DNA from: a virus
Virus record (IMG/VR): IMGVR_UViG_3300024346_005492
Coordinates: 1-37,836 of that record
DNA: 37,836 nt
Strand: one strand, 5' to 3'
In this document: in pieces, positions 192-32,170 of the stretch
Layout of the letters: every line of letters begins with the position of its first letter
How positions within the stretch are numbered: the stretch's first letter is position 1
Made by a program: the position numbers and the translations under genes
The notes under the pieces: generated by a model
The model's input: the letters and a program-made list of their open reading frames with translations, nothing else
Told to the model about the DNA's origin: nothing
The model's database searches: none

Positions 192-222
192 TTTTAGTAA
201 AGGAATAATATTTCTTATAAAG

Positions 223-249
223 AAGCCCCGAGAAATCGGGGCTTTTTTT
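223..249 (+). terminator. Intrinsic terminator after the capsid gene
   Basis: A perfect 9-bp stem, AAGCCCCGA paired with TCGGGGCTT, closes a GAAA tetraloop and is followed by seven T residues. It lies 31 bases after the capsid stop and 54 bases before the next start, so it should end capsid transcription. The GC-rich stem stands out from the AT-rich surroundings. Confidence 0.93.
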
Positions 250-303
250 AACTAGTATAGACCTACACCATATGTATACCAAAACGTTATAAATTAGTTA
301 CTT

Positions 304-2670: not shown

Positions 2671-2689
2671 GTTAGAACCATACTTTTTC

Positions 2690-2699
2690 AATATTTATA
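2690..2699 (+). promoter_or_regulatory. AATATTTATA box (putative late promoter)
   Basis: Exact AATATTTATA, ten bases before the ATG of the small virion-like gene. It opens the neck-gene run and lies in the short gap after phoH. Confidence 0.5.
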
Positions 2700-2709
2700 C
2701 GAAAAAGGC

Positions 2710-3132: not shown

Positions 3133-3141
3133 TAAAAAAAT

Positions 3142-4359: not shown

Positions 4360-4360
4360 T

Positions 4361-4948: not shown

Positions 4949-5889
4949 TGGCAAAAAATAGAAAACCAATACCAAAAACCCAACACCAGTTAGGAGTAGA
5001 ACAAAATGTTCCTACATATCCTCAATATGGAGATCCAAATTCATTTAACCCTAATCCAACTACAAATAGAGCATTACAAACTTCTTTTAAAGGAGATACT
5101 GTAAAACCTTTTAGTGTTGGTATTCAAGATATAGATGAGGCTATTTTTTACTATTTTCAAAACGTAATTCAACCATCTGTAATACAAAACGGATCAAGAT
5201 TACCGGTTCCTGTTATTTATGGTTCACCTGAAAAATGGAAATCATATCAAAAAGACGGGTATTATAGGGATCAAAACGGTAGAATACAGGCTCCGTTGAT
5301 TATGTTTAAACGTAACAGTATAGACAAAAATAGACAGATAGCTAACAAATTAGATGCTAATAACCCACAAAACTTTGGTGTGTTTAATAAAAAATATACT
5401 CAAAGAAATGCTTATGATAATTTTAAAGTATTAAATAACAGAATCCCACAACAAGAATATTATGCTGTTGTAGTACCTGATTATTTAACAGTTACTTACA
5501 CATGTATTGCTTTTACTTATTATGTAGAACAATTAAATAAAATAGTAGAGGCAATGGAATATGCTTCTGATGCTTATTGGGGTAATCCTCAACGTTATCA
5601 ATTTAAAGCAGCTATTAATTCCTTTGGTTTTCAAACTGAATTAGTTGAAAACGATGAACGTGTGGTAAGAAGCACATTTGATATAAAAATCAACGGATAT
5701 ATTATACCAGAAATATTACAAAAAGACATAACAGCCATTAAAAAATTCTCAAATAAAACAAAAATTATATTTAGTATGGAAACTGTAAGCGATCCTATTT
5801 TCTTTGAAAGCAACGTAGTAGGGGATAGAATTGTAACAGAAACAGCTTCTCAAAAAGAAACTAAAAATAGATCAACTGCTATTGGATAA
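4948..5889 (+). CDS. Tail completion / sheath stabiliser, gp15-like
   Basis: The 313-residue product has an extended polar N-terminus of about 60 residues and then a core that lines up by eye with T4 gp15. RLPVPVIYGSPEKW matches gp15 VPITYASKEH. VTYTCIAFTYYVEQLNKIVEAM matches the gp15 helix IYELSIFTRYEDDMFQIVEQ. VRSTFDIKINGYIIPE matches gp15 IEWSLTFEVNGWMYP. gp15 forms a hexamer that caps the tail tube and sheath and joins the head. The position right after the gp13- and gp14-like genes supports the call. The gene ends 33 bases before the fibre gene, with an AATATTTATA box in between. Confidence 0.8.
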   Translation: MAKNRKPIPKTQHQLGVEQNVPTYPQYGDPNSFNPNPTTNRALQTSFKGDTVKPFSVGIQDIDEAIFYYFQNVIQPSVIQNGSRLPVPVIYGSPEKWKSYQKDGYYRDQNGRIQAPLIMFKRNSIDKNRQIANKLDANNPQNFGVFNKKYTQRNAYDNFKVLNNRIPQQEYYAVVVPDYLTVTYTCIAFTYYVEQLNKIVEAMEYASDAYWGNPQRYQFKAAINSFGFQTELVENDERVVRSTFDIKINGYIIPEILQKDITAIKKFSNKTKIIFSMETVSDPIFFESNVVGDRIVTETASQKETKNRSTAIG

Positions 5890-5892
5890 TTT

Positions 5893-5902
5893 AATATTTA
5901 TA
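5893..5902 (+). promoter_or_regulatory. AATATTTATA box before the giant fibre gene
   Basis: Exact AATATTTATA, ending 20 bases before the fibre ATG, immediately after the stop of the gp15-like gene. It probably drives the fibre and the two small genes that follow. Confidence 0.5.
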
Positions 5903-5922
5903 TTAGATAACAAACAAGTTTA

Positions 5923-8900
5923 ATGGCACAAGTAAGATTTTTAGATCAAGTACCGGTTGGTGTATATAATCCTAATGGAGGGAATGGTGGTGCAGGCACT
6001 ATTGATATATATCAAAATGGAATATTAGTTAGCGCTAGTGTTCCCTATATTAATATAAGTGGCTCAGCAACAGTCACTGGATTTAGTGTAAGTGGTAGTG
6101 ATACTGGTGTAACTATTTTAGTACAAGGTGTAGGATTTCCATTTTCAGGTTCAGCCGTTATCACTGGATCTTTAATAATTTCTGGTTCAAGTCCAACACC
6201 AATAATTGTACAAACATTACCTGTTCAATCAGGTCCTTATGTTGTTACATATAACCCAACAACAGGTGTTATAGGATATGTAAATTCTACTTCCGGAACT
6301 AGTGGTGTAGCAGGTTCGTCTGGAACAGCAGGAATTTCAGGAACAAGTGGAACATCAGGCACAGCAGGTTCTTCAGGCACAGCAGGTACTCAAGGTGCTG
6401 CTGGTTCTTCTCGTTTAAGTGATTCAAGTGGTACTTCAGGTACAAGTGGTACTAATGGTACGGTAGGTAATGCTGGCGGAAGTAACTCAAGTGCATCATC
6501 TGGAACCGCTGGTTCATCTGGTACAACAGGTACAGCAGGAGCTGCAGGTGGAGGAAATAATAGTGCATCTTCTGGAACTAGTGGTACATCTGGAAGTACA
6601 GGTACATCAGGTACATCAGGATTAGCTGGAGAAAGTAATTTAAGTGCTTCAAGTGGCACAAGCGGAACTTCAGGTTCTACTGGTACTGCAGGTACAGCAG
6701 GTAATGCTAACATAAGTAATTCAAGTGGAACTAGTGGTACTTCAGGTTCAACTGGTTCATCAGGATCAGCAGGAAATAGTAATTTAAGTGCTTCTTCTGG
6801 AACATCTGGTTCAACTGGTACTAATGGTACTGTAGGTATATCAGGTAGTAGTGAATCAAGCGCTTCAAGTGGAACTAGTGGTACTTCAGGAAGTACAGGT
6901 TCATCAGGTTCAACAGGTGCCGCTGGTTCTTCACGCTCAAGTGATTCAAGTGGTACTAGTGGTTCTTCAGGTTCTGCTGGTAGTACAGGAACTAGTGGCT
7001 CATCTGGTTTATCTGTTAATAGTAGCTCATCAGGTACTTCAGGTACAGCGGGTTCAACAGGAACTAGTGGTACTGCGGGTAATTCAAATTCAAGTTCATC
7101 TGCAGGAACATCAGGTTCAAGTGGTTCAACAGGTTCAGCAGGAGATGCTGGAAGTAGTAATTTAAGTGCATCAAGTGGTACTTCAGGATCATCTGGTTCA
7201 ACAGGTACCTCAGGAGCATTTGGTGGAAATGGTTCAAGTAATTCAAGTGGTACAAGTGGCTCTTCAGGTTCATCAGGAATATCGGGAACTGCTGGTACTT
7301 CAAATATAAGTAATTCATCAGGTTCAAGTGGTACTTCAGGTTCATCCGGAATAGCAGGAACCGCTGGTACTTCAAATCTAAGCAATACATCAGGAACTAG
7401 TGGTTCATCTGGTTCTACAGGTACAACAGGTACTCAAGGAGCAGCTGGTGGAAGTAGATTAAGCGACACTTCAGGTACATCTGGTTCATCTGGTACTGCA
7501 GGTTCTACAGGAACAAACGGTACATCAGGCTCATCTAGTTCAAGTTCTTCTTCAGGAACAGCAGGAACAAGTGGTTCAACAGGTACTAATGGTTCTAATG
7601 GCTCTTCAGGTTTAAGTTCTTCTTCAGGAACAGCAGGAACAAGTGGTTCAACTGGTTCTGCAGGTAATGCTGGAGGTAGTAATTTAAGTGCTTCATCTGG
7701 TACAAGTGGTTCTTCAGGTACAACAGGTACTGCAGGAGCAATTGGTGGAAGTAATTCAAGTCAATCATCAGGTACAAGCGGTACTAGTGGTTCAACAGGA
7801 TCAACAGGTTCGGCGGGTAATGCTGGTGGAAGTAATATAAGTAATTCAAGTGGAACTAGCGGTTCTTCAGGTTCTACAGGTAGTGCTGGAGCTGTAGGTG
7901 GAAGTGCTTTAAGTCAATCAAGCGGAACAAGCGGTACTAGTGGTTCAACAGGAACAACAGGTACAGCAGGTGCTGCAGGAGCTAGTCGACTAAGTGATTC
8001 TTCAGGAACTAGTGGAACATCAGGTTCAAGTGGTTCTACTGGTACTAATGGTACAGCAGGTTCTGCTAATTCTTCTACATCAAGTGGTACCTCAGGTTCA
8101 TCTGGTTCTACTGGAACATCAGGATCTGCAGGTAACGCAGGAACTTCAAACATAAGTAATTCATCTGGTACTTCAGGAAGTACAGGTACAACAGGAACTG
8201 TAGGATTGGCAGGAGGTAGTAACTCAAGTGCATCCTCAGGTACATCTGGTTCTTCAGGTACAACAGGAACATCAGGTTCAGTAGGTGCTGCTGGTTCATC
8301 TCAATCAAGTAACACAGCTGGTACTTCAGGTACTTCTGGTTCAGCAGGTAGTGCAGGTACAAATGGTACTGCAGGAGCTGCTGGTTCATCTAATTCTAGT
8401 GCTTCATCTGGTACTTCAGGTTCTAACGGTACCACAGGTACTGCTGGAGCAACAGGAGGAAGCAATTCAAGTGCATCTTCAGGCACATCAGGTACATCTG
8501 GTTCTACAGGTTCTGCAGGTAATGCTGGAGGAAGTAATTCAAGTCAATCATCTGGTACTAGTGGTTCTAGTGGTAGTACTGGAACAACAGGTACAGTAGG
8601 TGCTGCTGGAGGTAGTAACTTAAGTGCTTCTAGTGGAACTAGTGGTTCAAGTGGTAGTGCAGGTACAATAGGAACAGCAGGTAATGCTGGTTCTTCTAAT
8701 ATAAGTAATTCATCTGGAACTAGTGGTTCAACAGGATCAAACGGTTCAGCAGGTAACGCAGGTACTTCAAATATAAGTAACAGTTCAGGAACCTCTGGTT
8801 CAACAGGTACTACAGGTTCAGTGGGTTTAGCTGGTGGAAGTAACTCTAGTGCTTCTAGTGGAACATCAGGTTCTAGTGGTTCAACTGGAACCATAGGTAC

Positions 8901-11900
8901 AGCGGGAAATTCTAACTCAAGTACCTCTTCAGGAACTGCTGGAACAAGTGGTTCAACAGGTTCATCAGGTAATGCTGGAGGTAGTAATTCAAGTGCTTCA
9001 TCTGGTACAAGCGGTAGTTCAGGTTCAACTGGTACTTCAGGTACTGTAGGGGTAGCAGGAGCAAGTCAATTAAGTCAATCATCAGGAACTAGTGGCTCAT
9101 CAGGTTCAACAGGATCAACAGGTTCTGCTGGTAATGCTGGTTCATCAAATATAAGTAATTCTAGTGGAACAAGTGGTTCAACTGGAACTAATGGTACTGC
9201 AGGTGTTGCTGGAGCTTCAAATAATAGTACTTCATCTGGAACTTCAGGTTCATCTGGTACAACAGGTACAGCTGGAGCGGTTGGTGGAAGTGCGTCTAGT
9301 GCAAGCTCAGGTACAAGTGGTTCATCTGGTTCAACAGGTACTACAGGAACAGCAGGTAATGCTGGGGCAAGTAATTTAAGTGCTTCAAGTGGAACAAGTG
9401 GTTCTACAGGATCAACAGGATCAGCAGGTAATGCTGGAGCTTCTAACTTAAGTAACTCTTCAGGTACAAGTGGTTCTTCAGGATCTACAGGTACAGCTGG
9501 AGCAGCAGGAGGAAGTAACTTAAGCGCTTCTAGTGGTACTTCTGGTTCATCAGGTAGTACTGGTACCGCTGGTACAGTAGGAGCAGCAGGTTCATCTCAA
9601 TCAAGTGCTTCCTCAGGTTCAAGTGGTTCAAGTGGTTCAGCTGGTACTAATGGAACAGCAGGTAATGCTGGTTCTTCAAATTCAAGTCAATCAAGTGGTA
9701 CTAGTGGTTCATCAGGTAGTACTGGTACTGCTGGTTCAGCAGGTAATAGTAATTCAAGTCAATCATCAGGTACTTCTGGTTCTTCAGGTTCAGCAGGTAC
9801 TGTAGGTGCTGCTGGTGCAAGTCAATCAAGTAATTCAAGTGGAACTAGTGGTAGTACAGGTACAAGTGGTTCATCAGGATTAAATGGATTTAATGGACTT
9901 TCAGGACAAAGTGGTTCATCGGGTACAAATGGTACAAATGGTACTTCAGGAGTAGATGGAGCAAGTGGTTTAAGCAGAAGCTCAGGCTCATCAGGTTCAT
10001 CTGGTACAACAGGTACAGCAGGTGCCGTTGGTGCTTCTAATTCTAGTGCATCATCTGGTACGTCAGGTACATCTGGTTCAACAGGTTCAGTAGGTACAGC
10101 AGGAGCTGCTACTTCAAGTGCTTCTAGTGGAACTAGTGGTTCATCAGGAACAACAGGTTCTACAGGCAACGCAGGTGGTAGTAATTTAAGTGCTTCCTCA
10201 GGTACAAGTGGTTCAAGTGGTAGCACAGGTACATCTGGTACAGTAGGAGCAGCAGGTGCAAGTCAATCTAGTACATCTTCCGGTACAAGTGGTTCAAGTG
10301 GTAGTACAGGAACAACAGGTACTGCTGGTGCTGCTGGTGGAAGTAACACAAGTGCTTCTAGTGGAACAGCCGGAACAAGTGGTTCAACTGGTTCTGCTGG
10401 TGTCGCTGGAGGTAGTAACTCAAGTGCATCTAGTGGTACAAGTGGTTCAACTGGAACTAATGGTACAGCAGGTGCTGCTGGTACTTCAAACTTAAGTGCT
10501 TCTTCGGGTACATCTGGTTCAAGTGGTTCTGCGGGAACTAATGGTACGGCAGGTGCTGTGGGAGGAAGTGCATCAAGTGCATCATCAGGAACTTCAGGTT
10601 CTTCGGGTTCAACTGGAACAACAGGTTCACAAGGTGCAGCCGGAGGAAGCCGTTTAAGTGATACTTCAGGTACAAGTGGTACATCAGGTAGTACAGGTAC
10701 TACAGGTACTAATGGTAATGCAGGAGGAAGTAATTTAAGTGCATCTAGTGGTACATCAGGTTCTAGTGGTTCAACAGGATCAGCAGGTACAGTAGGAGCT
10801 GCTGGTGCATCTCAATTAAGTGCTTCATCTGGAACATCTGGTTCAACAGGTACTAATGGTACTGCAGGTAATGCAGGTTCAGGCAATACAAGTGGAACAA
10901 GTGGTTCTTCAGGAACAACAGGCTCAAATGGTAACGCCGGAGGTAGTAACTCTAGTGCTTCTAGTGGTTCATCAGGTTCAAGTGGTACTTCAGGTACTGC
11001 TGGAGCAGCAGGTGGAAGTAATTCTAGTGCAAGTTCAGGAACATCTGGTTCTTCAGGTTCTACAGGTACTTCAGGTACTGTAGGAGCAGCAGGGGCAAGT
11101 CAATCAAGTCAATCATCAGGTACTAGTGGATCTAGTGGTTCTACAGGAACTTCAGGTACTGCTGGTAATGCTGGTAATTCAAATAATAGTGCCTCTTCAG
11201 GCACAAGCGGATCTAGTGGTTCTGCTGGTTCAACAGGAACAGCGGGTGCTGCTGGGGCTTCAAATTTAAGTGCGTCAAGTGGCACATCAGGATCTAGTGG
11301 TTCAACTGGTTCTACAGGAACAGCAGGTGCTGCTGGTTCTTCTCGTTTAAGTGACTCATCAGGAACTTCAGGTACTTCAGGATCAACAGGAACTACAGGT
11401 ACAAATGGATTAGCAGGTGGAAGTAATTCTAGCGCTTCTAGTGGTACCTCAGGTTCTAGTGGTTCAACAGGTACTTCAGGTACAGTAGGAGCGGTTGGTG
11501 GAAGTGCTTTAAGTGCAAGTTCAGGAACAAGCGGTTCTAGTGGTTCAACAGGTACCGCAGGTACAGTAGGAGCTGCTGGTTCATCTCAATTAAGTGCTTC
11601 TTCAGGTACAAGTGGCTCAGCTGGTTCAACAGGTACTGCTGGAGCAGCAGGGGCAAGTGCTTTAAGCAACACTTCAGGAACTTCAGGTTCATCTGGTTCA
11701 AATGGTAATGCTGGCATCGCTGGTTCAAGTAATATAAGTGCAACTTCAGGTACATCAGGTTCAAACGGTACATCAGGAAATGCAGGAGTAGCAGGTTTAA
11801 GCGCATTAAGTGCATCTTCAGGTACATCAGGATCTAGTGGTTCAACAGGTACAAATGGTACTGCTGGAATTGCTGGTTCTTCAAATAGTAGTGCTTCTAG

Positions 11901-14900
11901 TGGTACATCTGGTACTTCAGGTTCTACAGGATCAGCAGGTAATACAGGAGGTAGTAACTCTAGCGCATCATCTGGAACTTCAGGTAGCTCAGGTACTACT
12001 GGAACAATAGGAGCAGCAGGTGGAAGTAATTTAAGTCAATCATCAGGTACTAGTGGTTCATCTGGTTCAACAGGTACTTCAGGCACTACAGGAGCTGCAG
12101 GAGCAAGTCGTTTAAGTGATTCTAGTGGAACATCAGGATCTAGTGGTTCTACAGGAACTACAGGAACTAATGGTTTATCAGGTGCTTCAAATACAAGTGC
12201 TTCAAGTGGTACAGCAGGTTCAAGTGGATCTACAGGTACCGCAGGTACAGTAGGTGCTGCTGGTTCAAGCCAATCTAGTGCTTCAAGTGGTACAAGTGGC
12301 TCATCAGGTAGTACTGGTTCCGCAGGTAACGCTGGTGCTTCAAATACAAGTAATTCAAGTGGAACAAGCGGAAGTACAGGTACAAATGGAACTGCAGGTA
12401 ATGCTGGTTCTTCTAATACAAGTGCTTCAAGTGGTACTGCAGGTACAAGTGGTTCAACAGGAACTTCTGGTACAATAGGAGCTTCAGGATCTTCAAATAG
12501 TAGTGCTTCTAGTGGTACCGCAGGTACAAGTGGTTCTACTGGTACAACAGGTACAGCAGGTAACGGAAATTTAAGTTCATCTAGTGGTACATCAGGTACC
12601 TCAGGTTCAACAGGTTCAGCGGGTAATGCAGGTGGTAGCAATTTAAGTGCTTCAAGTGGTACTGCAGGGTCATCTGGTTCTACTGGAACATCAGGTACAA
12701 TAGGAGCTTCAGGTTCATCTCAATCATCACAATCTTCAGGCACTTCAGGATCTTCTGGATCTACGGGTACAACAGGTTCAGCAGGTAACGCTGGTTCATC
12801 AAATATAAGTAATTCAAGTGGAACTAGTGGTTCTACTGGAACTAATGGTACGGCAGGTAATGCTGGTATAAGTAATTTAAGTGCCTCAAGTGGTACAAGT
12901 GGATCTAGTGGTTCTACTGGTACTGTAGGAGCAGCGGGTTCATCTCAATTAAGTGCTTCTTCTGGAACTAGCGGTTCATCAGGTTCATCCGGTACGGCAG
13001 GTACTCGTGGATCAAGTTTAGACAGTGGTTCATCAGGTAGTTCAGGTACAAGCGGTTCTACAGGAACAGCAGGTTCAGAAGGCGCTTCTTCTTTAAGCAG
13101 AAGCTCAGGTACTTCAGGATCTTCAGGATCTTCAGGATCTGCAGGTGTTGATGGAGGCAGTGCATTAAGTCGTAGTTCAGGTACATCGGGTTCGTCTGGT
13201 TCTACTGGAACATCAGGTACAGTAGGTGCTGCCGGATCTTCTCAATCAAGCCAATCATCAGGAACTAGTGGATCTAGTGGTAGCGCAGGTACAATAGGTA
13301 CAGCTGGTAACGCAGGATCTTCAAATAGTAGTGCTTCTAGTGGTACAGCAGGATCATCTGGTTCTGCAGGTACAAATGGTACAGCAGGAGCCGCAGGATC
13401 AAGTAATTCAAGTGCTTCTTCAGGTACATCAGGAAGTTCAGGTTCTGCAGGAACTGTAGGAGTAGCTGGTCCATCTCAATCTAGTGCATCTAGTGGAACA
13501 AGTGGTACTACAGGTACTACAGGTTCAGCAGGTGCTGCCGGTGCTTCAAATATAAGTAATTCAAGCGGAACAAGCGGAAGTACAGGTACTACAGGTACTC
13601 AAGGTGCTGCAGGTGGAAGTCGTTTAAGTGATTCAAGCGGAACAAGCGGTTCAAGTGGTTCTACAGGAACAACAGGTACTAATGGTAACGCCGGAGGTAG
13701 TAATTCAAGTGCTTCATCAGGAACTAGTGGAACATCTGGTTCTACAGGTTCTGTAGGTACAGCAGGATCTGCTAACTCAAGTTCATCATCAGGTACTTCA
13801 GGTTCAAGTGGTACTACAGGTTCAGCAGGTAATGCTGGAGGTAGTAATTTAAGTCAATCATCTGGAACATCTGGTTCTAGTGGTTCTACAGGAACTACAG
13901 GATCAGCTGGTGCCGCTGGTACTTCAAATATAAGTAACTCTTCAGGTACAAGTGGTTCTACTGGTACTACAGGTACAGTAGGTGTTGCTGGTTCAAGCCA
14001 ATCAAGTCAATCATCAGGTACAAGTGGTTCAAGCGGTTCAGCAGGTACTACAGGTACTCGTGGATCAAGCTTAGACAGTGGATCTTCAGGTTCAAGTGGA
14101 ACAAGCGGTTCTACAGGTACTGCTGGTTCAGAAGGAGCGTCATCACTAAGCAGAAGCTCAGGTACATCAGGATCATCAGGTTCATCAGGTACCGCTGGTA
14201 TAGACGGTGCTAGTGCGTTAAGTCGCAGTTCAGGTACATCGGGTTCGTCTGGTTCAACTGGTACTTCAGGTACAGTAGGAGCAGCAGGTTCATCTCAATC
14301 TAGTGCTTCAAGCGGTACAGCAGGTACTTCAGGTTCAGCAGGAACTAATGGTACAGCTGGTGCTGCTGGTACTTCAAATATAAGTAATACAGCGGGAACA
14401 AGCGGTAGTACAGGTACTAATGGAACCGCTGGTAACGCTGGTTCATCTCAATCTAGTGCTTCATCTGGAACTAGTGGTTCTAGTGGTAGTACAGGAACTA
14501 CAGGTACAGCTGGTAATGCTGGTTCATCTCAATCAAGTGCTTCATCTGGAACAAGTGGTTCATCTGGTTCAACAGGTACCGTAGGTGCAGCAGGGGCAAG
14601 TGCTTTAAGCAATACATCAGGAACTTCAGGTTCATCAGGTTCAAATGGTAACGCTGGTGTTGCTGGTTCAAGTAATATAAGTGCAACCTCAGGTACAAGC
14701 GGTTCTAATGGTTCATCTGGAAACGCAGGAGCAGCAGGCGTAAGTGCTTTAAGTGCTAGTTCAGGTACATCAGGTACTTCAGGATCTACAGGTTCAACAG
14801 GTACTCAAGGAGCAGCCGGTGGAAGTAGATTAAGTGATTCTAGTGGTACTTCAGGTACATCAGGATCATCAGGTTCTACAGGAACAAACGGTACAGCAGG

Positions 14901-17900
14901 ATCTGCTAACTCAAGTACTTCATCTGGTACAAGTGGAACATCAGGTTCTACAGGTACAAATGGTACAATAGGTGCTTCTAATACAAGTGCATCATCTGGA
15001 ACTTCAGGTTCATCTGGTACTACAGGTTCAAATGGTAACGCTGGAGGTAGTAATTTAAGCGCTTCTAGTGGAACAAGTGGTTCTAGTGGTTCTACTGGTA
15101 CTTCAGGTACAGTAGGTGCTGCAGGTTCATCTCAATCAAGTGCATCTTCAGGCACATCTGGTTCTAGTGGTTCAACAGGAACTAATGGAACCGCTGGAGC
15201 GACAGGTTCAAGTAATTCTAGTGCTTCTAGTGGAACAAGTGGTTCTTCAGGAAGTACAGGTTCTGCAGGTGCAGCTGGTGCTTCAAATAGTAGTGCTTCT
15301 TCAGGTACAAGTGGTACAAGTGGTTCTACAGGTTCTACAGGTACACAAGGAGCAGCCGGTGGAAGTCGTTTAAGTGATTCAAGTGGAACAAGTGGAACAT
15401 CAGGTTCTACAGGTACTACTGGTACAAATGGCGCTGCTGGTGGAAGTAATTCTAGTGCAAGTTCAGGTACTGCTGGTTCATCAGGTAGTGCGGGTACAAA
15501 TGGTACTGCTGGAGCAGCAGGTTCAAGCAATTCAAGTAATACATCAGGAACAAGTGGTTCTGCTGGTACTAACGGTACTGCAGGAGCAGCTGGTTCATCT
15601 AATAATAGTGCTTCTTCCGGAACATCAGGTACTTCAGGATCTACAGGTTCTACTGGTACTGCGGGTGCGGCCGGTTCAAGCCAATTAAGTAATTCATCTG
15701 GTACAAGTGGTTCATCTGGTTCATCTGGTACAGCTGGTACTCGTGGTTCAAGCTTAGATAGCGGTTCATCTGGTTCAAGTGGAACAAGCGGTTCAACAGG
15801 TACTGCTGGTTCAGAAGGTGCTTCTTCTTTAAGTAGAAGTTCAGGTACTAGTGGTTCATCAGGTTCAACAGGAACAGCAGGTGTTGACGGAGGTAGTGCA
15901 TTAAGCAGAAGTTCAGGTACTTCAGGATCTAGTGGATCTACAGGTACTAATGGTACAATTGGAGCAGCAGGTTCATCTCAATCTAGTGCTTCAAGCGGTA
16001 CAGCAGGTACTTCAGGTTCAGCAGGAACTACAGGTACAGCAGGTGCTGCAGGATCAAGTAATATAAGTGCATCTAGTGGAACCTCAGGCTCAACTGGTAC
16101 AACTGGTTCAGCAGGTAATGCAGGAACTTCAAATATAAGTAATTCTTCAGGTACTTCAGGTACATCAGGTTCAAGTGGTAACGCAGGTGTAGCAGGAGCA
16201 AGTGCTTTAAGTGCTTCATCTGGAACTTCAGGTTCATCAGGATCTACAGGTTCATCAGGTACTACAGGTGCTGCGGGTGCAAGTAGATTAAGTGATTCTT
16301 CAGGTACTAGTGGTTCATCTGGTTCTACAGGAACAACAGGAACAAATGGTTTAGCAGGTGCTTCAAACACAAGTGCTTCAAGTGGTACTTCCGGTAGTGC
16401 AGGAACAACAGGTTCGGCAGGTAATGCAGGAGGTAGTAACTCTAGTGCTTCTAGTGGTACTGCTGGTACTTCAGGCTCAACAGGAACTAACGGTACAGCA
16501 GGTGCCGCTGGTTCAAGTAATTTAAGTACTTCAAGCGGTACTTCAGGTTCTAGTGGTTCTACAGGTACAAATGGTACAGTAGGAGCCGCTGGTTCATCTA
16601 ATAGTAGCTCATCATCTGGTACAAGCGGAACTAGTGGTTCAACTGGTTCAACCGGTACTCAAGGAGCTGCTGGTGGAAGTAGATTAAGTGATTCTAGTGG
16701 TACAAGTGGTACTTCAGGTTCTACAGGTACTACTGGTACAAATGGAGTTGCTGGTGCTTCAAATATAAGTAATACATCTGGAACTAGTGGTTCTTCAGGT
16801 TCAAATGGTAATGCTGGCGCAGCAGGTTCAAGCGCATCTAGTGCTTCAAGCGGAACAAGCGGAACAAGTGGTTCTGGTGGTTCAGCAGGTATTGGTGGTG
16901 CTTCTGGAGCTTCAGCAGCAAGTGCTTCAAGTGGAACAAGTGGAACAAGTGGTTCTAATGGTACAACAGGTAACGCAGGTGCAGCAGGTGCATCAAATAT
17001 TAGTGCTTCATCAGGTACAAGTGGTTCTAGTGGTACAACAGGTACTATAGGTGTTGCTGGAGCAAGTAATTTAAGTCAATCATCAGGTACTTCAGGATCT
17101 AGTGGTTCAACAGGAACAGCAGGTACTCGCGGTTCAAGCATAGATAGTGGTTCATCAGGTTCAAGCGGAACTAGTGGTTCTACAGGAACTACAGGTACAG
17201 AAGGTGCTTCTTCTTTAAGCAGAAGTTCTGGAACATCAGGTTCATCAGGTACTACAGGTACTTCAGGTGCTGATGGTGGTAGCGCTTTAAGCAGAAGTTC
17301 AGGTACTTCAGGTTCAACTGGAACAACAGGAACAAATGGTAACGCGGGTTCTTCAAATGCAAGTGCTTCAAGTGGTACAGCCGGTTCAAGTGGTTCAACA
17401 GGAACTACAGGTACTAATGGTAATGCAGGTGCTGCTGGTATTTCAAATATAAGTAATACATCAGGTACAACAGGTTCAAATGGTACTAACGGTTTACCTG
17501 GAACTATAGGAATAAGCGCAGCTAGTGCAACTTCAGGTACAAGTGGTTCAAATGGTTCAAATGGTAATGTTGGTATAGCAGGTAATAGCGCTATAAGTTC
17601 AACTTCTGGAACTAGTGGTTCTTCAGGAACTACAGGTACAACAGGTGCTGCTGGTGCTGCTGGAGCAAGTGCTTCAAGTGCATCAAGTGGCTCAAGTGGT
17701 ACTAACGGTAGTTCAGGTGGACCTGGTATAGCAGGTTTAAGTGCAGCAAGTGCAACATCAGGTACTTCAGGTTCAAATGGTACAAACGGTAATGCTGGTG
17801 TAGCAGGAGGTAGTAACTCTAGTTCAACTTCAGGAACATCAGGTTCAACAGGAACAACAGGTACTCAAGGAGCTGCAGGTGCAAGCAGATTAAGTGATTC

Positions 17901-20900
17901 ATCCGGTACTTCAGGTTCAAGTGGTAGCACAGGAACAACAGGTACTAATGGTATAGCAGGTTTAAGTAATAGTAGTGCTTCTTCAGGAACTTCAGGAACA
18001 TCAGGTTCTTCAGGTGGACCAGGAGTAGCGGGTTTAAGTGCAGCAAGTGCAACATCAGGAACTTCAGGTTCAAATGGTACTAATGGAAACGCAGGTATAG
18101 CAGGTAATAGTGCTTCAAGTGCGTCTTCAGGAACTAGTGGTTCATCAGGTTCAAATGGTACAGCAGGTATAGGTGCTTTAAGTAATACTGCTGGTACTGC
18201 TGGAACTAGTGGTACAATAGGTACTGCAGGATTAGGCGGTAATAGCGGAGCAAGTAATACTTCTGGTACAAGTGGATCTACAGGTACAACAGGTTTTGCT
18301 GGTGCTGCTGGAGCAAGTGCTTCAAGTGCCTCTTCAGGAACTAGTGGTACTAATGGTACCTCTGGTAACGCAGGTGTTGCTGGAGCAAGTGCTTTAAGTG
18401 CATCAAGTGGTACTTCAGGTTCAACAGGTACAACAGGAACTGTAGGAGCGGCCGGTGGAAGTAGATTAAGTGATTCATCTGGTACTTCAGGTTCAAGTGG
18501 TTCAACAGGAACTACAGGTACTAATGGTAACTCTGGAGCTGCAGGTTCAAGTAATATAAGTAATACATCTGGAACAACAGGTTCAAATGGTACTAATGGT
18601 CTACCAGGTGTATCAGGAATAAGCGCAGCTAGTGCAACTTCAGGTACAAGTGGTTCAAATGGTTCAAATGGTAATGCTGGTATAGCAGGTAATAGTGCTT
18701 TAAGTACAACATCAGGAACTTCAGGTTCAACAGGTACTAATGGTACTAATGGAGTTGCAGGTAATGGTGGATTAAGTGCTGGAAGTAACACTTCAGGTAC
18801 AAGCGGTACAACAGGTTCAGCAGGTAATGCTGGAGCGGCAGGATCAAGTGCATCTAGTGCTTCTTCAGGAACTAGTGGAACAACTGGTACAACAGGTAAT
18901 GCTGGTGCAGCCGGAGGTAGCAATTCAAGTGCTTCAAGTGGAACTAGTGGTTCTAGTGGTTCAACAGGTACTCAAGGTGCAGCTGGTGGAAGTAGATTAA
19001 GTGATTCTTCAGGTACTAGTGGTACATCAGGTTCAACAGGAACAACTGGTACTAATGGTATAGCTGGTTTAAGCAATAATAGTGCATCTTCAGGAACTAG
19101 TGGAACAAGTGGTTCAAATGGTGGTCCTGGAGTAGCAGGAATAAGTGCCGCAAGTGCAACATCAGGTACTTCAGGTACAAATGGTACATCAGGAAATGCG
19201 GGTGCAGCAGGTGCGAGTGCTTCAAGTGCTTCAAGTGGTACTTCAGGAACAACAGGATCTAATGGTACAACGGGTAACGCAGGAGCAGCAGGAGCAAGTG
19301 CTTCAAGTGCTAGTTCAGGAACTACAGGTACAAATGGTTCAAGTGGTGGTCCTGGAGTAGCAGGTTTAAGCGCAGCTAGTGCAACATCAGGGTCTAGTGG
19401 AACAAATGGTACTAATGGAGCAGCAGGTGCTGCTGGTTCAAGTGCTTTAAGTACAACATCTGGTTCTAGTGGTACAAACGGTACTAATGGAGTAACAGGT
19501 AATGGTGGTTTAAGTGCTGGAAGTAATACTTCAGGCACAAGTGGAACAACAGGTTCAGCAGGTAATGCCGGCGCTGCTGGAGCAAGTGCTTTAAGTGCTT
19601 CAAGTGGTACTTCAGGTACAAACGGTACAACGGGTAACGCAGGAGCAGCAGGAGCAAGTGCTTCAAGTGCTAGTTCAGGAACTTCAGGATCTAGTGGTTC
19701 TTCAGGAACAAGTGGTATAGCAGGAGCTGCAGGTTTAAGTGCAGCTAGTGCATCAAGTGGTTCAAGTGGTACAAATGGTACTAATGGAAATGCAGGTGTA
19801 GCAGGAGCAAGTGCTTCAAGTGCTACATCAGGTTCAGGAGGTACTAATGGTACTAACGGAGCAGCAGGTGTTGGTGGTTTAAGTGCTGGAAGTAATACAT
19901 CTGGTACAAGTGGTACTAATGGTACTGCTGGTAACGCTGGAGCTGCTGCTTCAAGTGCTTCAAGTGGTACTTCAGGAACAACAGGAACAACAGGTAACGC
20001 AGGTGCCGCAGGAGCAAGTGCTTCTAGCGCATCAAGTGGAACTACAGGTTCAAATGGTACTAACGGTTTACCTGGAACTATAGGAATAAGCGCAGCTAGT
20101 GCTACATCTGGAACTACAGGTTCAAATGGTACATCTGGAAATCCAGGTATAGCAGGTAATAGCGCAGCTAGTGCAACTTCAGGTTCAGCAGGTACAAACG
20201 GTACTAATGGAGTAACAGGTAATGGTGGTTTAAGTGCAGGAAGTAACACTTCAGGTACAAGTGGTACAACTGGTACTGCAGGTAATGCTGGAGCAGCCGC
20301 TGCTTCTAATACAAGTGGTACTTCAGGAACAACAGGAACAACAGGTAACGCAGGTGCCGCAGGAGCAAGTGCTTCAAGTGCATCTTCAGGAACTACAGGT
20401 TCAAATGGTACTAATGGTTTACCAGGTGTATCAGGAATAAGTGCAGCAAGCGCAACATCAGGTTCAAATGGTACTAACGGTACTAATGGAGCAGCAGGAG
20501 CAGCAGGAACAAGTAATGTAAGTGCAACTTCAGGTTCAAGTGGTACAAATGGTACAACAGGTGCTGCAGGTGCCGCAGGTGCAAGTAACTCAAGTGCAAC
20601 TTCAGGTACAACAGGATCAAGTGGTTCAAATGGTGGACCAGGTGTAGCAGGTTTAAGTGCAGCAAGTGCAACTTCAGGAACATCAGGTTCAAGTGGTTCT
20701 TCAGGAGCTAATGGAGCTGCAGGTTCAAGCAGAACTTCAGGTACAGCAGGTTCATCAGGTACAACAGGTACTGATGGAAACAACGGAGCTAGTGGTTCAA
20801 GCAGAACATCTGGAACATCAGGTTCAAGTGGAACAAGTGGTACAACAGGTACTAACGGTTTAAGTGTTGGAAACGCTACTTCAGGAACTTCAGGTTCAGC

Positions 20901-21435
20901 AGGTTCATCAGGTGTATCTATTAACGGTACTTCAGGTATTAGTGGTGGTGTATTTAACAACCAACCAAACTATGTAGTATACACAGTAAACGGAACAACA
21001 GTACAAAGTACAAGTTTCTTATACACAGATATTACAAACAGCAGATTAGGTGTTGGTACAGCTTCTCCATCATATCCAGTACACGTAGCATCAAACGTAA
21101 GTGGTGTTTCAATATACGCCGCTTATGATATTCAAGCATTTTCGGATGAAAGAGTAAAAGCAAATATTAAAGTAATTGAAAACTCACTTAATAAAATCCA
21201 ACAAATTGATGGTGTTACATTTATAAGAACTGATAATCCATCAAACCCTACACAAAGACATGCTGGTGTAATTGCTCAACAAATAGAAAAAGTACTTCCA
21301 GAAGTAGTAAGTACAGATAAAGAAACAGGAATTAAATCAGTAGCATATGGTAACATAAGTGGGTTGTTAATTGAAGCTATTAAAGAATTAAATAAAAAAG
21401 TAAAAGATCTACAAAACCAATTAAATAATAAATAA
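5923..21435 (+). CDS. Giant collagen-like fibre with S74 chaperone domain
   Basis: One uninterrupted frame encodes 5170 residues. Residues 1 to about 122 are non-repetitive and beta-rich, a likely virion attachment domain. From about 123 to 5006 the chain is Gly-X-Y triplets, mostly GTS, GSS, GST, GTA, GTN and GNA, broken at intervals by two triplets whose Gly is replaced (for example RLS-DSS, NLS-ASS, QSS-ASS). Pro is almost absent until the last quarter, where GLPG and GGPG units appear. Charged residues are few, and I saw no cysteine. After 5006 comes a short beta segment, then a peptidase S74 / endosialidase-type chaperone with SDERVK at 5074, RHAGVIAQQIEKVLPEVV and a final coiled coil. 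This family trimerises fibres and then cuts itself off in front of that serine. The product is probably a receptor-binding or long whisker-like fibre. The stop overlaps the next start (TAATG). Confidence 0.93.
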   Translation: MAQVRFLDQVPVGVYNPNGGNGGAGTIDIYQNGILVSASVPYINISGSATVTGFSVSGSDTGVTILVQGVGFPFSGSAVITGSLIISGSSPTPIIVQTLPVQSGPYVVTYNPTTGVIGYVNSTSGTSGVAGSSGTAGISGTSGTSGTAGSSGTAGTQGAAGSSRLSDSSGTSGTSGTNGTVGNAGGSNSSASSGTAGSSGTTGTAGAAGGGNNSASSGTSGTSGSTGTSGTSGLAGESNLSASSGTSGTSGSTGTAGTAGNANISNSSGTSGTSGSTGSSGSAGNSNLSASSGTSGSTGTNGTVGISGSSESSASSGTSGTSGSTGSSGSTGAAGSSRSSDSSGTSGSSGSAGSTGTSGSSGLSVNSSSSGTSGTAGSTGTSGTAGNSNSSSSAGTSGSSGSTGSAGDAGSSNLSASSGTSGSSGSTGTSGAFGGNGSSNSSGTSGSSGSSGISGTAGTSNISNSSGSSGTSGSSGIAGTAGTSNLSNTSGTSGSSGSTGTTGTQGAAGGSRLSDTSGTSGSSGTAGSTGTNGTSGSSSSSSSSGTAGTSGSTGTNGSNGSSGLSSSSGTAGTSGSTGSAGNAGGSNLSASSGTSGSSGTTGTAGAIGGSNSSQSSGTSGTSGSTGSTGSAGNAGGSNISNSSGTSGSSGSTGSAGAVGGSALSQSSGTSGTSGSTGTTGTAGAAGASRLSDSSGTSGTSGSSGSTGTNGTAGSANSSTSSGTSGSSGSTGTSGSAGNAGTSNISNSSGTSGSTGTTGTVGLAGGSNSSASSGTSGSSGTTGTSGSVGAAGSSQSSNTAGTSGTSGSAGSAGTNGTAGAAGSSNSSASSGTSGSNGTTGTAGATGGSNSSASSGTSGTSGSTGSAGNAGGSNSSQSSGTSGSSGSTGTTGTVGAAGGSNLSASSGTSGSSGSAGTIGTAGNAGSSNISNSSGTSGSTGSNGSAGNAGTSNISNSSGTSGSTGTTGSVGLAGGSNSSASSGTSGSSGSTGTIGTAGNSNSSTSSGTAGTSGSTGSSGNAGGSNSSASSGTSGSSGSTGTSGTVGVAGASQLSQSSGTSGSSGSTGSTGSAGNAGSSNISNSSGTSGSTGTNGTAGVAGASNNSTSSGTSGSSGTTGTAGAVGGSASSASSGTSGSSGSTGTTGTAGNAGASNLSASSGTSGSTGSTGSAGNAGASNLSNSSGTSGSSGSTGTAGAAGGSNLSASSGTSGSSGSTGTAGTVGAAGSSQSSASSGSSGSSGSAGTNGTAGNAGSSNSSQSSGTSGSSGSTGTAGSAGNSNSSQSSGTSGSSGSAGTVGAAGASQSSNSSGTSGSTGTSGSSGLNGFNGLSGQSGSSGTNGTNGTSGVDGASGLSRSSGSSGSSGTTGTAGAVGASNSSASSGTSGTSGSTGSVGTAGAATSSASSGTSGSSGTTGSTGNAGGSNLSASSGTSGSSGSTGTSGTVGAAGASQSSTSSGTSGSSGSTGTTGTAGAAGGSNTSASSGTAGTSGSTGSAGVAGGSNSSASSGTSGSTGTNGTAGAAGTSNLSASSGTSGSSGSAGTNGTAGAVGGSASSASSGTSGSSGSTGTTGSQGAAGGSRLSDTSGTSGTSGSTGTTGTNGNAGGSNLSASSGTSGSSGSTGSAGTVGAAGASQLSASSGTSGSTGTNGTAGNAGSGNTSGTSGSSGTTGSNGNAGGSNSSASSGSSGSSGTSGTAGAAGGSNSSASSGTSGSSGSTGTSGTVGAAGASQSSQSSGTSGSSGSTGTSGTAGNAGNSNNSASSGTSGSSGSAGSTGTAGAAGASNLSASSGTSGSSGSTGSTGTAGAAGSSRLSDSSGTSGTSGSTGTTGTNGLAGGSNSSASSGTSGSSGSTGTSGTVGAVGGSALSASSGTSGSSGSTGTAGTVGAAGSSQLSASSGTSGSAGSTGTAGAAGASALSNTSGTSGSSGSNGNAGIAGSSNISATSGTSGSNGTSGNAGVAGLSALSASSGTSGSSGSTGTNGTAGIAGSSNSSASSGTSGTSGSTGSAGNTGGSNSSASSGTSGSSGTTGTIGAAGGSNLSQSSGTSGSSGSTGTSGTTGAAGASRLSDSSGTSGSSGSTGTTGTNGLSGASNTSASSGTAGSSGSTGTAGTVGAAGSSQSSASSGTSGSSGSTGSAGNAGASNTSNSSGTSGSTGTNGTAGNAGSSNTSASSGTAGTSGSTGTSGTIGASGSSNSSASSGTAGTSGSTGTTGTAGNGNLSSSSGTSGTSGSTGSAGNAGGSNLSASSGTAGSSGSTGTSGTIGASGSSQSSQSSGTSGSSGSTGTTGSAGNAGSSNISNSSGTSGSTGTNGTAGNAGISNLSASSGTSGSSGSTGTVGAAGSSQLSASSGTSGSSGSSGTAGTRGSSLDSGSSGSSGTSGSTGTAGSEGASSLSRSSGTSGSSGSSGSAGVDGGSALSRSSGTSGSSGSTGTSGTVGAAGSSQSSQSSGTSGSSGSAGTIGTAGNAGSSNSSASSGTAGSSGSAGTNGTAGAAGSSNSSASSGTSGSSGSAGTVGVAGPSQSSASSGTSGTTGTTGSAGAAGASNISNSSGTSGSTGTTGTQGAAGGSRLSDSSGTSGSSGSTGTTGTNGNAGGSNSSASSGTSGTSGSTGSVGTAGSANSSSSSGTSGSSGTTGSAGNAGGSNLSQSSGTSGSSGSTGTTGSAGAAGTSNISNSSGTSGSTGTTGTVGVAGSSQSSQSSGTSGSSGSAGTTGTRGSSLDSGSSGSSGTSGSTGTAGSEGASSLSRSSGTSGSSGSSGTAGIDGASALSRSSGTSGSSGSTGTSGTVGAAGSSQSSASSGTAGTSGSAGTNGTAGAAGTSNISNTAGTSGSTGTNGTAGNAGSSQSSASSGTSGSSGSTGTTGTAGNAGSSQSSASSGTSGSSGSTGTVGAAGASALSNTSGTSGSSGSNGNAGVAGSSNISATSGTSGSNGSSGNAGAAGVSALSASSGTSGTSGSTGSTGTQGAAGGSRLSDSSGTSGTSGSSGSTGTNGTAGSANSSTSSGTSGTSGSTGTNGTIGASNTSASSGTSGSSGTTGSNGNAGGSNLSASSGTSGSSGSTGTSGTVGAAGSSQSSASSGTSGSSGSTGTNGTAGATGSSNSSASSGTSGSSGSTGSAGAAGASNSSASSGTSGTSGSTGSTGTQGAAGGSRLSDSSGTSGTSGSTGTTGTNGAAGGSNSSASSGTAGSSGSAGTNGTAGAAGSSNSSNTSGTSGSAGTNGTAGAAGSSNNSASSGTSGTSGSTGSTGTAGAAGSSQLSNSSGTSGSSGSSGTAGTRGSSLDSGSSGSSGTSGSTGTAGSEGASSLSRSSGTSGSSGSTGTAGVDGGSALSRSSGTSGSSGSTGTNGTIGAAGSSQSSASSGTAGTSGSAGTTGTAGAAGSSNISASSGTSGSTGTTGSAGNAGTSNISNSSGTSGTSGSSGNAGVAGASALSASSGTSGSSGSTGSSGTTGAAGASRLSDSSGTSGSSGSTGTTGTNGLAGASNTSASSGTSGSAGTTGSAGNAGGSNSSASSGTAGTSGSTGTNGTAGAAGSSNLSTSSGTSGSSGSTGTNGTVGAAGSSNSSSSSGTSGTSGSTGSTGTQGAAGGSRLSDSSGTSGTSGSTGTTGTNGVAGASNISNTSGTSGSSGSNGNAGAAGSSASSASSGTSGTSGSGGSAGIGGASGASAASASSGTSGTSGSNGTTGNAGAAGASNISASSGTSGSSGTTGTIGVAGASNLSQSSGTSGSSGSTGTAGTRGSSIDSGSSGSSGTSGSTGTTGTEGASSLSRSSGTSGSSGTTGTSGADGGSALSRSSGTSGSTGTTGTNGNAGSSNASASSGTAGSSGSTGTTGTNGNAGAAGISNISNTSGTTGSNGTNGLPGTIGISAASATSGTSGSNGSNGNVGIAGNSAISSTSGTSGSSGTTGTTGAAGAAGASASSASSGSSGTNGSSGGPGIAGLSAASATSGTSGSNGTNGNAGVAGGSNSSSTSGTSGSTGTTGTQGAAGASRLSDSSGTSGSSGSTGTTGTNGIAGLSNSSASSGTSGTSGSSGGPGVAGLSAASATSGTSGSNGTNGNAGIAGNSASSASSGTSGSSGSNGTAGIGALSNTAGTAGTSGTIGTAGLGGNSGASNTSGTSGSTGTTGFAGAAGASASSASSGTSGTNGTSGNAGVAGASALSASSGTSGSTGTTGTVGAAGGSRLSDSSGTSGSSGSTGTTGTNGNSGAAGSSNISNTSGTTGSNGTNGLPGVSGISAASATSGTSGSNGSNGNAGIAGNSALSTTSGTSGSTGTNGTNGVAGNGGLSAGSNTSGTSGTTGSAGNAGAAGSSASSASSGTSGTTGTTGNAGAAGGSNSSASSGTSGSSGSTGTQGAAGGSRLSDSSGTSGTSGSTGTTGTNGIAGLSNNSASSGTSGTSGSNGGPGVAGISAASATSGTSGTNGTSGNAGAAGASASSASSGTSGTTGSNGTTGNAGAAGASASSASSGTTGTNGSSGGPGVAGLSAASATSGSSGTNGTNGAAGAAGSSALSTTSGSSGTNGTNGVTGNGGLSAGSNTSGTSGTTGSAGNAGAAGASALSASSGTSGTNGTTGNAGAAGASASSASSGTSGSSGSSGTSGIAGAAGLSAASASSGSSGTNGTNGNAGVAGASASSATSGSGGTNGTNGAAGVGGLSAGSNTSGTSGTNGTAGNAGAAASSASSGTSGTTGTTGNAGAAGASASSASSGTTGSNGTNGLPGTIGISAASATSGTTGSNGTSGNPGIAGNSAASATSGSAGTNGTNGVTGNGGLSAGSNTSGTSGTTGTAGNAGAAAASNTSGTSGTTGTTGNAGAAGASASSASSGTTGSNGTNGLPGVSGISAASATSGSNGTNGTNGAAGAAGTSNVSATSGSSGTNGTTGAAGAAGASNSSATSGTTGSSGSNGGPGVAGLSAASATSGTSGSSGSSGANGAAGSSRTSGTAGSSGTTGTDGNNGASGSSRTSGTSGSSGTSGTTGTNGLSVGNATSGTSGSAGSSGVSINGTSGISGGVFNNQPNYVVYTVNGTTVQSTSFLYTDITNSRLGVGTASPSYPVHVASNVSGVSIYAAYDIQAFSDERVKANIKVIENSLNKIQQIDGVTFIRTDNPSNPTQRHAGVIAQQIEKVLPEVVSTDKETGIKSVAYGNISGLLIEAIKELNKKVKDLQNQLNNK
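13000..13182 (+). repeat. Charged 61-residue module, copy 1
   Basis: Module with ordered landmarks GTRGSSLDSG, GSEGASSLSRSSG and VDGGSALSRSSG. It holds an unusual number of charged residues (Arg, Asp, Glu) for this fibre. Exactly 183 bases, as in the other three copies. Confidence 0.85.
14053..14235 (+). repeat. Charged 61-residue module, copy 2
   Basis: Same landmarks as copy 1, with IDGASALSRSSG in place of VDGGSALSRSSG. 183 bases long, starting 1053 bases (117 triplets) after copy 1. Confidence 0.85.
15736..15918 (+). repeat. Charged 61-residue module, copy 3
   Basis: Same landmarks as copy 1. 183 bases long, starting 1683 bases (187 triplets) after copy 2. Synonymous codons differ from the other copies. 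Confidence 0.85.
17122..17304 (+). repeat. Charged 61-residue module, copy 4
   Basis: Most diverged copy: GTRGSSIDSG, GTEGASSLSRSSG and ADGGSALSRSSG. 183 bases long, starting 1386 bases (154 triplets) after copy 3. It marks roughly the change into the Asn/Pro-richer last part of the array. Confidence 0.85.
21139..21144 (+). other. Predicted S74 self-cleavage site (Phe5073-Ser5074)
   Basis: These codons are the Phe and Ser of the FSDERVK motif. In endosialidase-type chaperones, the peptide bond before the conserved Ser of the SDxRxK motif is cut after the trimer has folded. Cleavage here would release residues 5074-5170, a 97-residue chaperone, and leave the mature fibre at 5073 residues. Inferred from the family; the cut itself is not visible. 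Confidence 0.7.
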
Positions 21436-22118
21436 TGGCGGTTCCAAGTACAAATGTAAAATTTAGTGACATATGGAGTGAGGCTAATGGTACCTATTCT
21501 ACAGGTATCCTTAGCCTAAACACTATGAGTTTTTTTTCATATTTTGCTGGGCCTAATGGTTCAAATTCACAAGCTAATAATAATTGGGGACAAGGTGAAA
21601 ACTCAGGATTAAATAGAATTTATGGAACATCTGCTAAAACTACTAATATAGCAGTAGGTGATTTTGATGGATTAACATATTTTTATGATAATTCAACTTA
21701 TCAAGTGACCCTAAATGTAACAAATAATTTAACAAACCCTCCACCATTCCCTCCTCCACCAGTAGATAATGCTGTTAACGTGAACGTTGAATTATGGGAT
21801 TCAAGTTTTTCTTATCAATACTTAGCGGGTGGTGGTATGGCAATGGCTCCTGGTACTTATGGACCATCAGCAGTCAGTCAACCTACGGGTGATCCTATTA
21901 TTTTTAGAGGATATTGGAAAGTAATTATAACTGGTGCTAACCCTTCATTTGCTGGTGGTACTTGTAATATTTTAATAAACGGAACTTCCAAAGTATCAGG
22001 AGGTACTGTAGCTGCTGGTTCTGGAGGAAGTACTTTTGATTCGTCCACTTATGGTACTGAGGATGTAGCATCATATGGTGGATATACAGGATTATATTTT
22101 GATGTAACCGTCAACTAA
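21435..22118 (+). CDS. Fibre-associated or virion protein, unknown
   Basis: The 227-residue product starts inside the stop of the giant fibre gene, so the two are probably co-translated. It begins VPSTNVKFSDIWSEANG, has many Gly, Asn, Tyr and aromatic residues, a proline cluster PPPFPPPP near residues 102-109, and a C-terminal part that looks all-beta, ending GLYFDVTVN. There is no signal peptide or enzyme motif. The N-terminal pattern (FSDIW...LNTMSFFSYF) resembles short proteins next to fibres in uncultured marine phages, but I cannot assign a family. A role as fibre tip, adhesin or attachment adaptor is an inference from position. Confidence 0.65.
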   Translation: MAVPSTNVKFSDIWSEANGTYSTGILSLNTMSFFSYFAGPNGSNSQANNNWGQGENSGLNRIYGTSAKTTNIAVGDFDGLTYFYDNSTYQVTLNVTNNLTNPPPFPPPPVDNAVNVNVELWDSSFSYQYLAGGGMAMAPGTYGPSAVSQPTGDPIIFRGYWKVIITGANPSFAGGTCNILINGTSKVSGGTVAAGSGGSTFDSSTYGTEDVASYGGYTGLYFDVTVN

Positions 22119-22120
22119 CT

Positions 22121-22339
22121 ATGATAATAAACGATTGGATACGAACATACGACTTTTTAGGTTATGTGCCTAATGACGCTTTAGAACAAGAAATATACAA
22201 TAAAGCAATTGAGGTAGGTACTGGATGGAAAAGAGGTAATCCTATAAATCCAAATGAATATCCTTATTTAAGAAAAATAACATCTTATTCTCAAGCATTT
22301 TTACAACAATATTTTCAAGATAGAGTGGGAAATCTTTAA
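22121..22339 (+). CDS. Small hypothetical protein, 72 residues
   Basis: A short frame starting two bases after the previous stop, with ordinary composition for this genome. The product is polar and aromatic-rich (WIRTYDFLGYVPND, then YPYLRKITSYSQAFLQQYFQD), likely helical, and has no membrane segment. I do not recognise it. Its tight spacing makes it the last gene of the fibre unit, before the box that opens the sugar-gene cluster. It could be a small fibre accessory or chaperone, but nothing in the sequence shows that. Confidence 0.55.
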   Translation: MIINDWIRTYDFLGYVPNDALEQEIYNKAIEVGTGWKRGNPINPNEYPYLRKITSYSQAFLQQYFQDRVGNL

Positions 22340-22369
22340 TTAAACTTGGTACTTTAAGTACTTTTTATT

Positions 22370-22378
22370 ATATTTATT
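22370..22378 (+). promoter_or_regulatory. ATATTTATT box before the glycosylation genes
   Basis: A variant of the AATATTTATA box (ATATTTATT), 12 bases before the ATG of the three-domain glycosyltransferase. It is the only such box I see at a gene start ahead of the five overlapping sugar genes, so it may drive all of them. Confidence 0.45.
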
Positions 22379-22390
22379 GTCAACACCGTT

Positions 22391-28820: not shown

Positions 28821-28832
28821 AATAAATAAAAT

Positions 28833-29510: not shown

Positions 29511-29525
29511 AAAAATAAATAAAAA

Positions 29526-32166: not shown

Positions 32167-32170
32167 CTTA

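Follow-up and report, generated by a model that had tools for sequence, protein, structure and literature searches.

How long a collagen-like fibre can a phage encode in one gene, and what would hold such a fibre together? This question was raised by a single reading frame in an uncultured water phage (IMG/VR contig IMGVR_UViG_3300024346_005492), of which the whole stretch of 37,836 nt, referred to as the window, was analyzed. The frame runs on the + strand from the ATG at 5923 to the stop codon at 21433-21435. It comprises 5170 codons without internal stop and takes 15,513 of the 37,836 nt (41%), so the original prediction of one giant collagen-like frame was borne out. About 4880 repeat residues had been claimed, and about 4,890 were found, starting at residue 111 or 119 and ending at 5005. 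What had been missed in that reading was a C-terminal Peptidase_S74 chaperone, the near-zero proline content, a repeat unit of 24 or 27 residues with two-triplet breaks, and a downstream cluster of glycosyltransferase genes.

Fibre gene, domains and assembly

The features of the locus were as follows.

3142-4359, + strand: head-tail adaptor-like gene (phrog_211, 2.4e-7)
3142-5889, + strand: neck/tail-completion block upstream of the fibre (the adaptor-like gene, g4361 and g4948), assigned by synteny
5923-6276, + strand: N-terminal domain of the fibre, residues 1-118, non-repetitive, presumed virion anchor, beginning MAQVRFLDQVPVGVY; conserved in 59 loci of viral contigs
6277-20937, + strand: GXX array, residues ~119-5005, 194 runs in a single Gly phase, with a Pfam Collagen match
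20938-21141, + strand: C-terminal knob, residues 5006-5073 (ISGGVFNNQ...IQAF), presumed distal end of the mature fibre; kept in S74-bearing homologues
21142-21432, + strand: Peptidase_S74 intramolecular chaperone, residues 5074-5170 (PF13884, PDB 6f45)
21435-22118, + strand: 227-aa small protein directly 3' of the fibre, kept with many S74-type fibres, possibly a fibre accessory
22121-22339, + strand: 72-aa conserved small protein
22391-25111, + strand: 906-aa multi-domain glycosyltransferase (Glycos_transf_1, weak GT25-like C-terminus); relatives carry a homologue 3' of their GXX fibre
25111-25686, + strand: FkbM methyltransferase (PF05050, 8.9e-14), possibly for sugar capping
25683-26633, + strand: conserved GT4-type glycosyltransferase (PF00534, 3.5e-6)
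26614-27816, + strand: GT9-type (heptosyltransferase-like) glycosyltransferase (PF01075, 9.3e-9)
27813-28811, + strand: NAD-dependent sugar epimerase/dehydratase (PF01370, 3.3e-40)
29834-32111, + strand: tail sheath and tail tube of a T4-like contractile tail (sheath PF04984, 4.9e-16, and PF17482, 2.7e-12; PF06841 at 5.7e-4, below the cut-off)

The fibre gene sits among neck, sheath and tube genes, as expected for a tail fibre of a T4-like contractile phage. The nearest cultured phages by the sheath were Flavobacterium phage immuto (54%) and Microcystis phage Mel-JY01 (49%). Two unusual phage metabolic genes, encoding a DDAH-like protein (dimethylarginine dimethylaminohydrolase) and a phosphatidylserine decarboxylase, adjoin PhoH at 304-1949 of the window and were kept in most relatives.

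The alignment of the N-terminal domain (A2) contained 33 invariant columns. No convincing match to this domain was obtained in a PDB profile search, its AF2 model from 35 sequences (pLDDT 49.5) was too poor for a fold search, and the domain was absent from the cultured-phage records searched. At the other end of the protein, the Peptidase_S74 profile PF13884 scored 60 bits against a cut-off of 22 (E 2.8e-16), and the sole PDB match was the tip of S16 gp37 (6f45, E 2.4e-10). The S74 domain of T5 pb1 and of K1F is a trimeric self-cleaving chaperone, and in T5 pb1 the scissile Ser1264 is activated by Lys1269 (PMC4690869). The same spacing was found here in the motif FSDERVK (Ser5074 and, at +5, Lys5079), and S-x4-K occurred in 6/6 S74-type members including the window. 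Self-cleavage before Ser5074 is thus predicted by analogy. As S74 domains are trimeric elsewhere and the Ser/Lys pair matches, three chains would be aligned at the C-terminus.

The length of the array could in principle be an artefact, with units misjoined or present in too many copies, since the contig is metagenomic and for positions 11925-18246 the window's own assembly is the only one; two exact 70-mers from this interval had no match among other viral contigs. The longest exact repeat in the array was 70 nt and no 71-mer occurred twice, so that the repeats are shorter than an ordinary short read. Contigs from two other IMG datasets were co-linear with the window: 3300027631_001214 over 2349-11924 (9.6 kb) and 3300006484_000081 over 18247-37813 (19.6 kb), each with 3 mismatches and no gap. 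An artefact is thereby ruled out for both ends of the array. The possibility raised with the original prediction, of a broken or misjoined frame, therefore fell away for the frame, which is open, and for both array ends. Frame and register were unbroken across 15.5 kb, and independent homologues reach 3.5-4.7 thousand residues. The assembly of the array is credible, and an artefactual length is very improbable.

Register, repeat unit and family of the GXX array

The array consisted of 27% G, 31.6% S, 15.8% T, 12.4% A, 6.2% N and 0.2% P, with Thr or Ser at the X positions and Ser, Ala or Thr at the Y positions. Proline occupied 1 of the 1,253 X positions and 10 of the 1,253 Y positions, far from the Pro/Hyp richness typical of known collagens, and the array is therefore termed collagen-like rather than a typical collagen. 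Its G+C content was 45% compared with about 30% in the flanks, because GXX codons demand such bases. Long reverse-strand ORFs within the array (e.g. 662 aa at 18972-20960) were dismissed as artefacts of composition.

Glycine was in phase in 1,253 triplets of the array (1,263 Gly across the protein), with zero phase shifts from end to end, which is impossible by chance. Among the 194 Gly-triplet runs, 107 had six triplets and 77 had seven, and the breaks between runs were exactly two triplets long in 181 cases. Within a break, the residue standing in for Gly was mostly N, A, Q or R in the first triplet and A, N, D or Q in the second, and the third position held Ser. The unit was hence mostly 24 or 27 residues (8 or 9 triplets, 72 or 81 nt), in agreement with the tandem repeats found in the DNA, where 9-nt repeats were also seen. 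The third base of the Gly codons varied (GGT 878, GGA 400, GGC 33, GGG 8), which indicated that the units are old and held by selection. In one register throughout, the array matched Pfam Collagen PF01391 with 74-83 bits per ~250-aa piece and 414.8 bits for residues 1-2026, above the cut-off of 27.2. PDB collagen matches were rejected as homology, as they reflect composition and the GXX period.

Nearly all charged residues of the array fell within break cassettes in which R takes the place of one Gly and D that of the next, three residues on, as in RLSDSS at residues 164, 338, 512, 689, 1577 and further on. Such R/D cassettes could possibly form inter-chain salt bridges. The R-x-x-D breaks followed no strict higher-order period, their spacings being irregular (132-888 residues).

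The giant size is a trait of the family, and array length is highly variable. Thirteen other complete homologues had 4735, 4661, 4499, 4182, 4017, 3915, 3484, 2756, 2732, 2568, 2269, 2034 and 1481 aa, which gave, with the window, 14 complete members of 1,481-5,170 aa, each with a giant GXX array. The concern that homologous fibres might be short or cleaved into pieces was not borne out, and only the ~97-residue chaperone is expected to be cut off. Nine members compared in detail shared the N-terminal domain and had exchangeable C-termini: S74 in G002, G004, G005, G008 and G011, and two further types in G003/G009 and G007/G010. Across 68 non-redundant arrays (91,062 residues), 2,551 of the 2,646 breaks of at most 15 residues were multiples of three (96%). 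Homologue G003 contained 1,053 consecutive triplets without a break, and 55 runs of at least 30 triplets were counted in the family. Array length would change freely by whole triplets and by whole units of 8-9 triplets.

Two side observations concern relatives. Genes resembling 2-oxoglutarate/Fe(II) oxygenases (prolyl-4-hydroxylase-type by eye) lie between the GXX fibre and the glycosyltransferase cluster in G003 (L097/L098, 20360-20941 of the joined region) and in G030 (L251), and hydroxylation of the fibre is possible there. G030 also carries three further GXX genes of 833-1,011 aa, rich in GPQG/GYQG.

Glycosyltransferase genes linked to the fibre

Relatives of the GT9 gene numbered 80, and in the 38 contigs that reach the fibre gene, 38/38 fibres were of the GXX type, 54-3,460 nt upstream of GT9. 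Conversely, GTa and GT9 relatives were absent contig-wide where the upstream gene and the sheath were shared and the fibre was another or none (G012, G014/G015, G016, G017, G018/G019, G020 and G022), and no Pfam glycosyltransferase match was obtained for 35 ORFs from the intervals of non-GXX relatives. On the sheath tree the fibre/glycosyltransferase state changed at least 4 times (3 without the cultured outgroup), fibre and glycosyltransferases always jointly. The close pair G012/G034 differed in both fibre type and glycosyltransferase cluster; L254 (G034) and L242 (G012) are very close by sheath (branch support 100/100) and form a natural pair for a study of cassette exchange. Three independent pairs were available, with a sign test of p 0.25 that cannot reach significance at this number. 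The linkage is thus an association and not proof, and adjacency may allow joint gain or loss by cassette exchange.

In G016, a second GXX fibre was located at the contig end without GTa/GT9 homologues; other transferase-like ORFs, read by eye, lie some kb from it. The 906-aa protein was considered as a member of GT25, the collagen galactosyltransferase family, and this assignment was rejected (E 0.0028, below the Pfam cut-off, and no PDB match), so that it serves as a lead only.

A search of 50,697 phage records for GT9 relatives yielded Microcystis phage Mel-JY01, three megaphage records and no others. In Mel-JY01 (PP395634) the GT9 relative lies just downstream of a GXX fibre, which makes this phage an isolate in which the glycosylation idea is testable. 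Its GXX frame spans the record start (1-3052, L110), where the deposited annotation has two genes on the opposite strand. The unannotated 735-kb megaphage LR756501 carries giant GXX genes elsewhere in its genome; three of them, of 1,664, 2,372 and 2,816 aa, lie at 102897-124291 (L261), and the pattern count, 2,578 for one strand, points to further such genes. In LR756504, where a GT9 relative occurs as well, the pattern test gave no GXX arrays. A search of the open-access literature for Mel-JY01, or for phage fibres accompanied by linked glycosyltransferases, found nothing, which is not proof of absence.

Proposed fibre architecture and comparison with known systems

Taken together, the gene probably codes for a giant fibre on the virion of a phage with a T4-like contractile tail, namely an S74-trimerised, collagen-like and sugar-stabilised helix docked on the tail or neck as a flexible tether. 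The C-terminus is the usual nucleation point of a collagen helix. Three chains would join through their S74 chaperones folding as a trimer, and the chaperones would then be cut off before Ser5074, exposing the small distal knob; the architecture and the Ser-Lys spacing were observed in the window, and trimer and cleavage are proposed after T5 pb1 and K1F. From the trimerised C-terminus towards the N-terminus, the GXX chains would zip into a collagen-like triple helix, a structure suggested by the observed register, which would be kept through the two-triplet breaks as local bulges or hinges of a long flexible tether. Sugars added to Ser/Thr side chains by the downstream glycosyltransferases would stabilise and hydrate the helix. 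This modification is suggested by the genetic association, and it is proposed because proline is virtually absent. Finally, the N-terminal domain would attach the trimer to the tail or neck, from where the fibre would reach for cells or loosely tether the virion to them; it may act as an adhesin, a neck whisker or a decoration. Fully triple-helical, the array would have a contour of 0.286 nm x ~4,890 = 1.40 μm, in line with the ~1.4 μm of the original prediction, and given the regular two-triplet breaks the fibre is likely flexible rather than rod-like.

Two features of the array speak against a triple helix. At ~0.2% Pro an unmodified helix might be unstable, and once every 24-27 residues a pair of consecutive triplets carries N, A, Q, R or D in place of Gly, an interruption that would disturb the helix. 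Alternatively, the array might form polyglycine-II helices packed compactly as a bundle or sheet, in the manner of S16 gp38; each unit would then make one helix, and the chain would turn at the two-triplet breaks. Such helices are known in a phage adhesin (PMC6851490), and the units are strikingly equal (8 or 9 triplets), as parallel packed helices need. The gp38 sandwich, however, has more than 50% Gly and loops of variable length, whereas the array has 27% Gly and keeps its register in 96% of breaks. The breakless stretch of G003 and the long family runs also argue against turns at every unit, and AF2 with an alignment returned no confident bundle: for a monomer of 10 array units with a 22-row alignment, pLDDT was 44 without a confident fold, a model that appears to lend no support to a compact bundle and would not bear on a trimer. 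The kept register at breaks and the unbroken relative favour one continuous threefold fibre, and the compact packing that had been offered as the other outcome is distinctly unlikely. Low AF2 confidence would suit a disordered, hydrated and perhaps glycosylated mucin-like linker, whose Gly period would stem from mutation bias of the 9-nt repeat; the Ser/Thr-rich, uncharged, proline-free sequence, the 9-nt and 72/81-nt tandem repeats and the adjacent glycosyltransferases fit this as well. Such a linker does not need a Gly register, yet Gly stays in phase over ~1,630 triplets although Gly third bases vary and the unit DNA has diverged to repeats of at most 70 nt. Phase kept despite diverged DNA indicates purifying selection and not fresh duplication, and a disordered linker is accordingly judged unlikely, if less so than the bundle.

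The third step has a rival of its own that is compatible with a triple helix: the glycosyltransferases would act on another virion protein, DNA or the host surface and travel with the fibre as a host-recognition cassette. Physical linkage would explain the co-variation in the 3 independent pairs, and the GT9 relative of LR756504 occurs in a genome without GXX arrays. Against this, fibre and glycosyltransferases stay adjacent even where sheath identity has fallen to about 60%, and the glycosyltransferases were absent from seven related lineages whose Ser-rich fibres are of other kinds. This alternative is a serious one, a little short of an even chance. Proline and hydroxyproline are the accepted basis of the stability of collagen, and the near-absence of proline makes an unmodified triple helix questionable; from the co-occurrence of GXX fibre and glycosyltransferases, O-glycosylation may replace proline as the stabiliser. 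The wider claim can be advanced tentatively, and we lean somewhat against it: uncultured water phages would widely carry micrometre-scale, nearly proline-free triple helices, with O-sugars placed on the Ser/Thr of Gly-Thr-Ser by a phage glycosyltransferase cluster, as tethers ~10 times the T4 long tail fibres. A family of nearly proline-free GXX proteins of ~1,500-5,000 residues with linked glycosyltransferases makes the question of sugars in place of imino acids directly testable. If extended, these fibres would rank with the longest known viral fibres and would alter the distance over which a phage can reach its host. They may also offer a proline-free route to recombinant collagen-like materials.

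Collagen-like fibres of phages have been described in EHEC prophages, where the side-tail-fibre proteins EPclA and EPclB were experimentally trimeric and triple-helical (PMC3368898). As here, these are phage fibres with a GXX domain between N- and C-terminal domains, and their Col lengths vary by multiples of three. The EPclA Col domain described there has ~111 residues and the recombinant protein was unglycosylated, compared with ~4,890 residues and 0.2% Pro in the window; the available part of PMC3368898 reports no S74 chaperone for EPclA/EPclB, in contrast to the fibre here. With the T5 L-shaped fibre pb1 and the K1F endosialidase, the fibre shares a C-terminal chaperone and a Ser with Lys at +5, whereas self-cleavage, trimer and tip exposure are findings on those proteins (PMC4690869). 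T5 pb1 has 1,396 aa in total, and no GXX array is known from its shaft, in contrast to the fibre here. S16 gp38 has left-handed Gly-rich helices with more than 50% Gly and variable loops in a ~73-residue domain (PMC6851490), in contrast to the GXX pattern, 27% Gly and fixed register of the array; the likeness lies in a Gly-rich phage fibre and the PDB match to the gp37 tip.

In known bacterial collagen-like regions Pro fills 19-31% of the X positions and Thr 32-48% of the Y positions, and the collagen-like BclA proteins carry sugars (PMC8968730). Galactosyl-threonine was reported to help stabilise Riftia collagen (PMC10141479). In Bacillus BclA and Riftia cuticle collagen, neither of which is a phage fibre, sugars on the repeats are thought to hydrate or stabilise (PMC8968730, PMC10141479); glycosylation in the window is suggested solely by the gene neighbourhood. 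A similar locus in an isolate is that of Mel-JY01, which has a GXX fibre of Gly, Ser and Thr, unannotated as such, followed by a multi-domain sugar-enzyme gene with a GT9 relative; its fibre is not as long, the open frame at the record start giving about 1,000 aa, and the N-terminal domain of the present family was not among the matches in phage records. The fibre thus belongs to a kind already known, the collagen-like and S74-matured phage fibres, and what is new is its far greater length, its near-freedom from proline and the glycosyltransferase cluster linked to a GXX fibre.
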